From an uncultured Curvibacter sp. (GTDB taxonomy: Bacteria > Pseudomonadota > Gammaproteobacteria > Burkholderiales > Burkholderiaceae_C), in contig CAIKMN010000003.1 of the NCBI GenBank assembly GCA_903828535.1, forward strand, positions 186,001 to 250,000: 64,000 nt of DNA, read 5' to 3'. Shown piece after piece: positions 56,422-62,180 of the stretch. The position numbers and the translations under genes are program-made. The notes under the pieces are model-generated. The model ran no database searches. It was not told the origin of the DNA and worked only from the letters and a program-made list of their open reading frames with translations. Position 1 is the first letter of the stretch. The number at the start of each line of letters is the position of its first letter.

Positions 56422-56898
56422 TTACAAGCCCAAGTCGGACAGGCTGGGGTGATCGTCCGGGCGCCTTCCGGCCCGGTCCATGGGCCAGTGAAACAAACGT
56501 TCTTTTTCTTGAATCGGCAGGTCGTTGATGCTGGCAAAGCGCTGTTGCATATAGCCTTCGGCGTTAAACGCCCAGTTTTCGTTGCCGTAGCTTCGAAACC
56601 ATTGCCCTGAATCGTCGTGCCACTCATAGGCAAAGCGCACCGCAATGCGGTTCTCCGTGAAGGCCCAGAGTTCTTTAATGAGCCGGTAGTCCAGTTCTTT
56701 GGTCCACTTGCGCTGCAAAAATGCTTTGACTTGTTCACGGCCTTTGGGGAATTCGGCGCGGTTGCGCCACAGCGTGTCTTCGGTGTAAACCAGCGAGACG
56801 CGCTCGGGGTCGCGAGAATTCCAGGCGTCCTCCGCCATGCGCACCTTTTGAGCAGCCGATTCGGCGGTGAAAGGGGGGAGTGGGGGCTTGGGGGTCAT
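56422..56898 (-). CDS. DUF1348 (NTF2-like) protein
   Basis: 158 residues with the DUF1348 pattern: [48 protein letters not shown], then [28 protein letters not shown] and [26 protein letters not shown]2-fold proteins of this type are small cytosolic barrels; the function is not known. Start ATG overlaps the stop of the upstream DMT gene (ATGA), so translation is coupled. Confidence 0.88.
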
Positions 56899-57506
56899 GG
56901 TTTATTCAATTCGCTCGGCGTGGAAGGCGGGTTGGTTTCGCCCGAAGTGGGGGGGGATGAGTTGGGCGATGAATCGGGTAGGGTGTTGGACGTGGCGTGG
57001 GGTGTTGTATTGGCAGTCGCATTGGCAGTCGTATTCGCAGTCGTATTCGCAGTCGTGCTCACGCTGAGTTGGGTGATGACCAAGCCCAGAATCAAAATGG
57101 CAATACCGCCAATTCGGACCCCATCGGCTGGCCGAACCGGCGCCCCAAACAAGCCCAACTGATCCACCAAAGTGGCACAAACAATCTGAGCGACGACGGC
57201 AAACAAAATAAAGTTACCGACGCCCATGCGCGGTGCGACGAGGGTCGCGCTCAGCACATAAAAGCCCACGATCAAACCACCAGCGAAGTCGATGGGTTGG
57301 GCTTGGCTCAATTTAGAGAGGTTCGGCAACGTCGAGGTCAGGGACAAAGCAGCGAACAGCAACGCCACAAAACCCACGCTGAAGAGCACCACCGGCGCGT
57401 GAAGGGGTTCACCCAAAGCACGGCCCAGCCGGGCATTCAAGACCGCCATGATCGGAATCAAAGCGCCCGCTGCTGCTGCCCACAAAGCCAAACGTATAGA
57501 TAACAT
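56895..57506 (-). CDS. DUF606-type DMT membrane protein with tandem-repeat tail
   Basis: 203 residues. The first about 148 residues are five hydrophobic helices of the DUF606/small DMT family ([48 protein letters not shown]). The last about 55 residues are a Thr/Asn/Ala then Ser/Pro-rich hydrophilic tail ([20 protein letters not shown]), which family members normally lack. Four 12-bp units encode part of it. Substrate unknown. First gene of a probable three-gene minus-strand operon. Confidence 0.78.
57007..57054. repeat. Four-copy 12-bp tandem repeat inside the DMT gene
   Basis: GTATTGGCAGTC, GCATTGGCAGTC, GTATTCGCAGTC, GTATTCGCAGTC in direct succession (plus-strand reading), in frame with the minus-strand gene, encoding the TTAN-like repeats. 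The last two copies are identical. Confidence 0.85.
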
Positions 57507-58967: not shown

Positions 58968-59972
58968 TTAGGCGCGTCGTTCTAAAAGCTGAGAGGCCAA
59001 TTGCCAGAGCGCTTGAGTGAAGGCGTTTTGTGGCAGCGGGCTCAAAGCTTGCATTGCGCGTTCCGCCTCTTGGTGCGCCGCCGCTTGCGAAGCCTGCAGT
59101 GCGCCGGAGCTTTGGACGATTTGAACAATTTGCGACAACTTGCTGGTGTCGCCATTTTCAATCGCACTGCGGATCATGGCGGCTTCTTCCGCGTTACCGC
59201 GTTGCATGCCAATGATCAGGGGCAAGGTGGCTTTGCCTTCGCGCAAATCGTCGCCCACATTTTTGCCCATTTCTTCGGGGTTGCCCGCATAGTCAAGCAC
59301 GTCGTCGATCACTTGAAACGCGGTGCCCAAAGCCTGTCCATAGGTGGCGCAGGCGGCTTCGATGGCCGGCGATGCGTTCACCAACAAAGCGGCAAGGCGG
59401 CTACTGGCCTCAAACAATTTGGCGGTTTTGGAGCGGATCACATACAAGTAGCCCGCTTCATCTAGAGAAGCGTCGTGCATGTTCATCAACTGCTGCACTT
59501 CGCCTTCGGCGATGACGTTGGTGGCATCGGCCAAGGTTTGCATGATGCGCATGTTGTCGGCGTCGACCATCATTTGGAAGGCGCGGGAATACAAAAAGTC
59601 GCCCACCAAAACGCTCGCTGGATTGCCGAAGGCTTCATTCGCAGTCGCTCGCCCGCGGCGCAAGGTGGATTCGTCGACCACGTCGTCGTGCAGCAGCGTG
59701 GCGGTGTGGATGAACTCGACCACGGCCGCTAAGTTGTGGTGCTGTCGGCCGATGTAGCCCAAGGCATTTGCCATCAAGAGCAAGACCACGGGGCGCAAAC
59801 GCTTGCCACCGGCGGCAATGATGTAGTGAGAAATTTGGCCGACCAAGGGCACCCCGGAAGACAGGCGCTGTGCAATCACCGTGTCCACCGCCTGCAGGTC
59901 TGGTGCGACCAAAGCCAATGGATTGGGGGGATCCATGGGGGCGTTGATCGTGGACAGAATGGGGCTGGACAT
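58968..59972 (-). CDS. ispB: Octaprenyl diphosphate synthase
   Basis: 334 residues. The two Asp-rich motifs are LLHDDVVDES (first) and VIDDVLDYAG (second), with GGKRLRPVVLLL near the start. Makes the side chain of ubiquinone. ATG 59972 has no Shine-Dalgarno; the mRNA directly upstream is a repeated pyrimidine tract. In most betaproteobacteria rplU-rpmA lie upstream in the opposite direction; here ureG does instead. Confidence 0.95.
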   Translation of the reverse strand: MSSPILSTINAPMDPPNPLALVAPDLQAVDTVIAQRLSSGVPLVGQISHYIIAAGGKRLRPVVLLLMANALGYIGRQHHNLAAVVEFIHTATLLHDDVVDESTLRRGRATANEAFGNPASVLVGDFLYSRAFQMMVDADNMRIMQTLADATNVIAEGEVQQLMNMHDASLDEAGYLYVIRSKTAKLFEASSRLAALLVNASPAIEAACATYGQALGTAFQVIDDVLDYAGNPEEMGKNVGDDLREGKATLPLIIGMQRGNAEEAAMIRSAIENGDTSKLSQIVQIVQSSGALQASQAAAHQEAERAMQALSPLPQNAFTQALWQLASQLLERRA

Positions 59973-59980
59973 GAAGCTAG

Positions 59981-60044
59981 GGGAAGCTAAAGGAAAGGCT
60001 AAAAGGGAAGGCTAAAAGGAAAGGCTAAAAGGAAAGGCTCAAAA
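59981..60044. repeat. 13-bp tandem repeat in the ispB leader
   Basis: Plus-strand units GGAAAGGCTAAAA (59992-60004), GGGAAGGCTAAAA (60005-60017), GGAAAGGCTAAAA (60018-60030) and GGAAAGGCTCAAAA (60031-60044), with a shortened copy at 59981-59991. On the ispB mRNA this reads as repeated CCTTTCC/TTTTAGC pyrimidine tracts immediately before the start codon. A second pair, CTAGAAAGAAC twice, lies at 60178-60199. Confidence 0.85.
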
Positions 60045-60069
60045 GGAATGTTCAAAACGGCTGAATCAC

Positions 60070-60109
60070 AAAAAAGCGCCGGGGCGTTTGAAAAACTCGG
60101 CCGATTATA
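60070..60109 (-). promoter_or_regulatory. Candidate ispB promoter (-10 TATAAT) and early hairpin
   Basis: The minus strand carries a perfect TATAAT (complement of 60104-60109); a -35 is only weakly matched. About 25 bases downstream a short GC hairpin (around ACGCCCCGGCGC) runs into six T residues (complement of about 60070-60075), which could attenuate transcription. The leader from there to the ATG would be about 100 bases. The rest of the 288-base gap (59973-60260) shows no gene. Confidence 0.45.
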
Positions 60110-60260
60110 GGGGCCTCGGCAAAAACAAAAGGTCCAAAAAAGGCAGAAAAAAGGCTCAACAGAGCCCTTAAAAGTACCTAGAAAGAACCTAGAAAGAACC
60201 TCAAAAGGGCCACATTGGGCCACTGCTCGAGGCGACTTCCGATGGTTTTGAAGCAGAAGA

Positions 60261-60911
60261 TCAGGCGGCATTTAACAAGCCCTTGGTTTCAATAAAAGAC
60301 ACGACCTCTTGCAGTCCTGTGAGCGTTTTGAGGTTGGTCATGACAAAAGGCTTGGCCCCGCGCATGCGCAAGGTGTCGCTGCGCATGACTTCCAAATTCG
60401 CGCCGACATGCGGGGCCAGGTCGGTTTTGTTGATGACAAACAAATCGCTCTTGGTGATGCCAGGACCGCCTTTACGGGGGATCTTTTCGCCAGCCGCCAC
60501 ATCAATCACATAGATCGTTAAATCGCTCAACTCAGGGCTGAAGGTGGCGGCCAAGTTGTCGCCGCCCGATTCGATGAAGACGATGTCGGCATTGGGGAAC
60601 TGAGCCAGCATGCGATCGATGGCCTCCAAGTTGATGGAAGCGTCTTCGCGAATCGCCGTGTGGGGACACCCACCGGTTTCGACGCCCAAGATGCGCTCAG
60701 CGGGTAACGCGCCGCTGACGGTCAGCAGACGCTGGTCTTCTTTGGTGTAGATGTCGTTGGTGATTGCAATCAGGTCGTACTGCTCGCGCATGGCTTTGCA
60801 CAGCATTTCGAGCAAGGTGGTTTTGCCGGAACCCACAGGGCCGCCAATGCCCACCCGCAGGGGAGGTAGTTTTTTAGAACGGCCAGGAATATGGTGCAGT
60901 GCTGAGGTCAT
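60261..60911 (-). CDS. ureG: Urease accessory GTPase UreG
   Basis: 216 residues. P-loop [18 protein letters not shown], switch segment [18 protein letters not shown] (Cys-Pro-His metal site), [17 protein letters not shown], and the NKTD motif. Drives nickel delivery with UreE, UreF and UreD. Starts 2 bases after ureF, last gene of the operon in view. Confidence 0.97.
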
Positions 60912-60913
60912 GG

Positions 60914-61666
60914 TTAGCTCCGAAAGAGTCGTGAATATTGTTGTTCGTGTTGGGCCGAGAGAATGGCCAAGCGGGGTGTAAAAGCTTGTCTTTCCTCATC
61001 CTTCAAAGCGCAAGCGAGGGCCACGGCTTCAGGAATTTCGCGAGCCAGGCGCAACAAGATTCGCTGACCCGCACTTTGCCCCAAGGGAATGGATTTAACC
61101 GCTGTTTGACTCATGTTTTCACACCAAGCAAAGGCGTAGGCGCTGACGGTTTGGTGCCCGTCGGCCTCGCCGCTTGGGTGATGCAGCCCCTGGTTTTGCA
61201 GCCCTTGGTTTTGTAGGGCCCATGCGGCTATCGCAAACGCCACGGGGTAAGTGGCCTTCCAATGGTGGGGCAGGTCGAGTGACTTGGCGGCTTCAGGGGC
61301 CAAGTTACGCAACCAATCCATCAGCGAGCGACCCATTTGCAAACTTTGTAAACGAAATTCTGCGGTTTCACGGGTTTGTAAAACCCAATCATTCAGTGCG
61401 CTGAGGCGCTGAATATCGACTGTGGCCATGGCCAAGGCCTTGGCTGAGGCCGCCACCACCGACAAATCGCCGCGCGCCAAACTGAAAATCAATTGGTCGC
61501 TCAGCCATTCCGCCGCGTTGGCTTCGGTGGTCACCCCCGCCCATTCGGTCGCTGCTTCGAATCCTTCTGAATAAGAAAACCCGCCCACCGGCAAAGCAGG
61601 CGAGGCCAGCCAAAGCAGGTGCAAAAGGGATTGCGATTGCGAAGTATTTTCAGTGGGCGTGATCAT
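60914..61666 (-). CDS. ureF: Urease accessory protein UreF
   Basis: 250 residues from the ATG at 61666 ([13 protein letters not shown]). The core [32 protein letters not shown] is diagnostic. All-helical GTPase-activating partner of UreG in apo-urease maturation. The start lies inside the 3' end of ureE (17-base overlap). A 15-base duplication around 61184-61216 encodes the repeated LQNQG of residues in the middle helix. The segment upstream in the same frame is a His-tail shadow and was left out. Confidence 0.93.
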
Positions 61667-62180
61667 GCGAATGACCGTGACCGTGATCGTGATCGTGACC
61701 CTGTGAATGCCCATGTGAATGCCCATGATGACCATAGGCGCCGTTCTCGGGCTCAAAGGATTCGTTGACGGCCTTCACAATCAGGTGCATGGCGCGCAGC
61801 ATGTCGGCCAGCACATGGTCGGGTTCAATTTTTAAATGGTCCGGCTTGAGCTCAATCGGCACATGTCGATTGCCCAAGTGGTAGGCCGCGCGCACCAAGT
61901 CAAAGGGACTGCCGTGTTGTGGGCAGGGCGTGATGCGCAGAACGGCTTGTGGCGCGGCGATCACACGCACCATCGAGCCGTCCTCGGCCACCAACACATC
62001 GCCGCCGCGCACCACTTGGCCGCGTGTCAAGAAAATACCCAAATGGCGTCCCTGAGAATCGGTGGCGTCAAAGCGGCTTTTTTGGCGCACATCCCAATCC
62101 AATTCGACAGTGGCCGCGCGCTTCAACAGCACGGCGGCCAAGCCTTGGCCTTGGGGCAACAGCTTAGAAATTTGCAACAT
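61650..62180 (-). CDS. ureE: Urease accessory nickel chaperone UreE, His-rich tail
   Basis: 176 residues from ATG 62180. The N-terminal UreE domain ([44 protein letters not shown]) and the C-terminal domain ([14 protein letters not shown], metal-binding His) are intact. The last 27 residues hold 13 His in GH/SH/DH dipeptides, a nickel-storage tail like that of Klebsiella UreE. It follows ureC by 20 bases. Confidence 0.95.

Follow-up and report, generated by a model that had tools for sequence, protein, structure and literature searches.

A tandem array in the ispB leader of a small-genome Curvibacter relative, one of many short intergenic arrays and ordinary in kind

The 5′ leader of ispB in a small-genome Curvibacter relative carries a pyrimidine-rich tandem array that is real and extreme, and that is ordinary in kind. 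We consider it probable that this array is a slippage-born minisatellite located in the ispB leader, in combination with ordinary initiation at an open start that does not depend on a Shine-Dalgarno (SD) sequence. According to this scheme, the repeat would have arisen by tandem duplication within the leader, presumably through replication slippage, and would be one among the more than 100 short tandem arrays of the intergenic DNA analysed in this genome. Transcription would start from a TATAAT promoter whose conservation is observed among relatives, and translation would use an SD-less ATG in a region predicted to be open. The effect of the repeat on ispB translation would be a mild modulation at most, and probably close to neutral. 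Among the features that count against this reading are the extreme pyrimidine content and openness of the leader, the preservation of the ladder of unit lengths in a sister species, and the fact that the lack of SD is not uniform among relatives.

The DNA under study is a stretch of 64,000 nucleotides (the window) from a freshwater bacterium whose genome (G000) amounts to 2.34 Mb in 36 contigs; the genome-wide counts given below refer to the analysed portion of 2,016,584 out of 2,337,972 bases, the intergenic part of which is 116,220 bases. In the window, ispB occupies positions 58968–59972 on the minus strand and encodes a polyprenyl (octaprenyl-type) diphosphate synthase of 334 residues, as assigned from the ORF and from NCBIfam, where the best model (NF008140, octaprenyl diphosphate synthase) gives 374.5 bits, under its curated cut-off of 412. 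Close IspB matches are present in all nine genomes of the genus. The upstream neighbor, ureG (60261–60911, minus strand), encodes a urease accessory GTPase (TIGR00101, 325.8 bits, above the cut-off of 204.2). Both genes adjoin in G000 and in the sister species (G008), they are found on separate contigs in the congener G003, and in E. coli ispB is annotated as divergent from rplU. Read in the sense of the mRNA, the ureG-ispB spacer displays successively an 11-nt array within a pyrimidine-rich stretch, a TATAAT, a weak inverted repeat, the 13-nt-type array, and the ATG.

The array itself (59973–60039, minus strand) is made of units of 13-13-13-12-10-6 nt of the AGCCTTTCCTTTT type, with repeated AGCC/TAGC cores, and it abuts the ATG as the original prediction, made from the letters of this DNA, had described; a degenerate partial unit (60040–60048, minus strand) forms its 5′ edge. 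Tandem Repeats Finder reports it at 59989–60048 with a period of 13, 4.5 copies, 93% matches, and a score of 104, as well as in a version with a 26-nt period at 59981–60048 with a score of 106, these two being the top scores of the window. The array is far beyond chance, the highest score in 10 sets of dinucleotide-shuffled G000 intergenic DNA being 54, and among the 131 arrays counted in G000 spacers its score places it fourth. A second, 11-nt array (60166–60207, minus strand) lies in the same spacer upstream of the ispB promoter and is shorter in the sister species (31 nt versus 9 nt); given its position, it cannot serve ispB translation from that promoter.

Comparison with the sister species indicates that the array is probably older than the split between both lineages. 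Indeed, its counterpart in G008 (score 54) follows the ladder 13-13-12-10-6, one unit fewer than in G000, and retains the TAGC cores and the succession of unit lengths despite diverged letters. Unit identity is 0.96 within G000, 0.57 within G008, and 0.63 between them, which points to a recent turnover in which the G000 copies would have been homogenized after the split. The congener G003, whose IspB is 87% identical, has no array and possesses a leader of 62 nt with no SD at its ATG. The number of repeats, which the original prediction had singled out for comparison among relatives, is thus not fixed, one genome per species having been compared. Length differences extend to other loci: 11 of the 131 G000 arrays, three of them from the ureG-ispB spacer, had both flanks in the sampled DNA of G008 (about 179 kb), and the length between matched flanks differs at 10 of these 11. 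When the arrays were chosen in G008 instead, 8 of 11 differed in length from G000, with the two lists sharing some loci and the compared lengths including some non-array bases between the flank ends. When the ispB leader was searched against 399 genomes drawn from the family, evidently not including G008, matches were returned in three genomes besides that of the window, each over 23–33 nt.

A perfect TATAAT, also announced by the original prediction, is located at 60104–60109 on the minus strand, 131 nt from the ispB ATG, and is the presumed −10 element. Of 54 ispB loci, 51 of them from relatives other than the three small-genome Curvibacter, 43 carry a TATAAT in the 320 nt that precede the conserved N-terminal region, which makes a genuine promoter element probable. 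The −10 profile was built from the 43 loci aligned on TATAAT, the 11 loci devoid of it being dropped, and features a C at −1 in 39 of the 43 and a T at −4 in 34. No −35 element is recognizable at ispB in the window and no −35 signal emerges from the 43 aligned loci. Downstream of the TATAAT and before the array, inside the presumed leader, lies the inverted repeat CGCC-CC-GGCG (4+2+4) followed by six T (60077–60086, minus strand). The short GC hairpin with its T run was therefore correctly noticed at the outset, but it is weak and was not called as a terminator in a scan of positions 59600–60300, which returned no site. A terminator or attenuator before ispB was rejected on these grounds, together with the lack of any Rfam match up to an E value of 1 and a leader no more stable than its shuffled versions. 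As a whole, the leader folds with a z-score of 0.51, and 134 of 200 shuffles fold at least as well, which means that its openness is compositional. In G008, the inverted repeat reads CACC-CA-GGTG, that is, a G-C pair has been replaced by an A-T pair through changes on both sides so that pairing is preserved, while the T run is broken.

Translation of ispB is expected to start at the ATG at positions 59972–59970 (minus strand), and the start codon is also an ATG in G008 and G003. As initially proposed, this ATG lacks an SD: the in-frame start codons as far as residue 30 or so, five in number, are all without an upstream match of at least 4 nt, and when the survey is extended to codon 50, giving eight candidates in all, the best match reaches 4 nt and belongs to a later internal codon only. 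A downstream start with its own ribosome binding site, considered from the beginning as the alternative, was hence discarded as far as those first five candidates are concerned. The absence of a 4-nt match at the first ATG is common in G000, as it concerns 279 of the 563 ORFs that have an ATG as first candidate and a leader no shorter than 30 nt, a rough count given that ORFs were called mechanically as the longest open frame of at least 100 residues (150 residues for leaders) and that some starts are wrong. Among the 54 ispB loci, 29 have no SD match of at least 4 nt at any listed candidate start and 25 have one at some candidate; loci that are SD-less at every candidate amount to 27 of the 43 with a TATAAT and 2 of the 11 without. 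The first in-frame start codon located more than 20 nt past the TATAAT is a TTG or a GTG in 36 of the 43 loci, at a distance of 24–66 nt.

The pyrimidine fraction of the ispB leader reaches 0.825 in the last 40 nt, the second highest value of 563 ORFs (and the highest of 241 in a smaller set), and the start region is predicted to be among the 54 least structured of the 563. A pyrimidine-rich and open leader fits SD-independent initiation, and it is plausible that ispB is translated in this way, possibly with the assistance of ribosomal protein S1; the start would be usable without an SD because its surroundings are open and rich in pyrimidines. One may go further and regard the array as a platform on which S1 loads the ribosome, selected because ispB is SD-less, and its copy number as a translation rheostat. 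The missing SD, the composition and predicted openness of the leader, and the retention of the array in G008, where it counts one unit less, are all in line with this idea, as is the occurrence of GAAAG before a TTG at ispB in five of the six large-genome congeners, from which it may be surmised that this lineage swapped an SD-like element for the present leader. We nevertheless hold it to be doubtful, because G003 combines a nearly related IspB and an SD-less ATG with a short leader devoid of any array, and because arrays in G000 are not concentrated before starts (see below). ispB does display the traits of an S1-dependent SD-less mRNA (no SD and a pyrimidine-rich, open leader), its leader folding as a whole like its shuffles. 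Within the preferred reading of a slippage-born minisatellite, the array may still tune translation slightly, by way of the length of the leader or of ribosome loading by S1. A combined scenario, in which small-genome Curvibacter would harbor an unusual mutational process adding and removing intergenic copies of 8–14 nt and the copies in the ispB leader would have been recruited to load ribosomes on an SD-less, pyrimidine-rich platform, with expression tuned by its length, appears unlikely to us.

An argument for a minisatellite comes from the population to which the array belongs. Using a period of at least 5 and a score of at least 36 as thresholds, 131 arrays were identified in the 116,220 intergenic bases of G000, 65 of which have a score of at least 50. 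When spacers were scanned alone, 112 arrays were obtained versus a mean of 7.0 in shuffled sequences, and 55 versus 0.3 at scores of at least 50. The period is 8–14 nt in 100 of the 131 arrays and 9–14 nt in 96. By comparison, the intergenic DNA of E. coli K-12 holds 2 arrays in 26,075 bases, none with a score of at least 50, so that the array density of G000 is about 15 times higher, a ratio that depends on just 2 arrays in E. coli. The large-genome congener G004 (160 kb sampled) has 2 arrays in 11.6 kb of intergenic DNA, none with a score of at least 50, and the sister species has 11 in 19.2 kb, including 2 at or above this score; these last figures exclude its own ispB array, left out because ispB is cut there at the end of the stretch, and become 12 and three when it is counted. 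The ispB array is beyond chance, differs in copy number between species, and sits in a genome-wide population that shows no clear regard for gene orientation, as would be the case for an intergenic minisatellite born by slippage.

The arrays of G000 do not seek start codons. Their density per kb is 1.50 in convergent spacers, 1.12 in tandem ones, and 0.91 in divergent ones (p = 0.10 for convergent versus the rest), and bases in arrays represent 2.4% of the 1–20 nt before starts versus 6.0% of the 1–20 nt after stops. A start lies no farther than 60 nt from 74 of the arrays; read in the sense orientation, 14 of these are at least 70% pyrimidine and 9 at most 30% (p = 0.40), and no significant strand bias of these start-proximal arrays was found. 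A class of repeats specific to leaders, to which the inventory of arrays near starts had pointed, was consequently rejected once these arrays were compared with those of convergent spacers and examined for orientation. Two counts run against the minisatellite reading: leaders very rich in pyrimidines are more numerous than those rich in purines (16 versus 6 of 759, p = 0.05), and TTTAGCC, a core of the arrays of ispB and of some other leaders, occurs in 11 leaders in sense and in 4 in antisense; a leader motif was not retained, these strand asymmetries being weak.

These data bear on two other proposals for the ispB array. Firstly, its repeated AGCC/TAGC cores could serve as a set of sites bound by a regulatory protein or a small RNA, and a similar 13-nt unit indeed precedes another gene (C16:17729–17778). 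This seems very unlikely, as a 15-nt unit pattern allowing up to 2 mismatches hits 4 sites at ispB and 2 elsewhere in the genome, as many as the 2 returned by the backward control, arrays in the leaders of different genes have different units, and the Rfam search mentioned above is negative up to the same E value. Secondly, the original prediction had envisaged a phase-like control of quinone synthesis, that is, a contingency locus where slippage of the array would switch ispB on and off. A tandem array close to a start codon that differs in copy number between species is what one would look for in such a locus. Nonetheless, the array lies between the −10 element and the ATG, so that gain or loss of a unit alters neither the reading frame nor the promoter spacing; its copies are few and imperfect, and IspB is expected to be essential. 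Considering also the abundance of SD-less ATGs and of arrays in all types of spacers, we give almost no credence to a switch. Of the initial interpretation, the pyrimidine-rich, SD-less leader and the variable copy number are supported, and special or phase-like control is not. As a slippage-born minisatellite, the repeat would instead be tolerated at this site because it lies outside the frame, downstream of the promoter and ahead of the start codon, and because the leader remains unstructured.

Exact tandem duplications with a unit of 9–40 nt number 45 in G000 spacers versus about 2 in simulations, none in the sampled spacers of G008 and 1 in those of G004, and a unit longer than 14 nt is seen in only 2 of the 45. 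In coding DNA, the period is divisible by 3 in 428 of 517 arrays versus 53 of 131 in intergenic DNA of G000, the pattern that tandem duplication would leave once screened by the reading frame, although codon structure also favors such periods. The density of arrays per kb of coding DNA is 0.29 in G000, 0.54 in G008, and 0.28 in G004; the excess in G008 (L185–L196, L106) is not explained by a purely intergenic picture. Loss of repair genes was dismissed as a cause of duplication: the repair search covered mutS, mutL, polA, and recJ, all nine genomes of the genus have model matches for them, and in G000 each match is above the curated cut-off. With these four genes present, the excess of spacer duplications in G000 is not readily accounted for.

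Among known systems, the ispB array comes closest, on the tests applied in this analysis, to the long simple sequence repeats and minisatellites of bacteria (Mrazek et al. 2007, as summarized in PMC4679880). According to that summary, long simple sequence repeats have units of 1–11 nt, 7 nt being the most abundant, are attributed to slippage (as a proposal) with multiples of three in coding DNA, and are plentiful in certain genomes, including those of Burkholderia, a member of the Betaproteobacteria. The resemblance lies in the short tandem units, the proposed slippage, and the multiples of three in coding DNA, while the G000 arrays mostly have longer periods (96 of 131 at 9–14 nt) and units that vary from locus to locus. 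The same source describes uspA2 of Moraxella catarrhalis, where an AGAT repeat of 6–23 copies in the 5′ UTR of a surface protein gene has a measured copy effect. Here as there, a repeat of variable copy number is placed between promoter and start codon, the ispB promoter being deduced from the conservation of TATAAT, and the likeness is one of position only: uspA2 has a 4-nt unit, a surface protein, and a measured effect, whereas ispB has a 13-nt unit, about five copies, and a biosynthetic enzyme. Finally, PMC4679880 reports 169 sets of TAACTGA repeats in marine Beggiatoaceae, most of them directly before starts in the sense orientation, these starts being mostly SD-less and S1 being among the proposed readers. 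Like the ispB array, they adjoin an SD-less start and have a unit that is not a multiple of 3, with a stop codon in several frames. However, a single unit is there linked to the starts of many genes, whereas each G000 locus has its own unit, no shared unit precedes many genes (with 4 sites at ispB and 2 elsewhere), and arrays are not start-specific. Among the matches listed in a literature search, no title dealt with the ispB leader or with repeats in Curvibacter, which is no proof of absence.

The tandem duplication process acting across the spacers of this lineage thus constitutes a better lead than a switch at ispB. The high density of spacer arrays in G000 makes the minisatellite origin testable on many parallel loci, as well as the question of when minisatellites become part of a translation leader. 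Had the array been a switch, quinone supply would have depended on the length of the repeat, and the evidence does not lead that way. Several further arrays deserve mention. At C16:17729–17778 in G000 lies a 13-nt array of the TTTTAGCCCTTTC type, with a unit similar to that of ispB; about 10 nt separate the end of this array from the first start codon of an ORF encoding, we presume, a protein that resembles an S46-type peptidase. At C11:57708–57778, ten copies of ACCTTTT are located between two divergent ORFs, one of which presumably resembles a ModA-type binding protein and the other of which, we assume, has an FKBP-type domain. In the window, a 12-nt array at 57007–57056 lies within the part of the ORF at 56895–57506 that encodes the C-terminal region and gives rise to a protein repeat of the TANTTAN type. 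Another 12-nt repeat, at 61702–61727, encodes MGIHMGIH at the predicted N terminus of the ORF at 60914–61756, which is possibly ureF by position and whose true start may lie downstream of this repeat.
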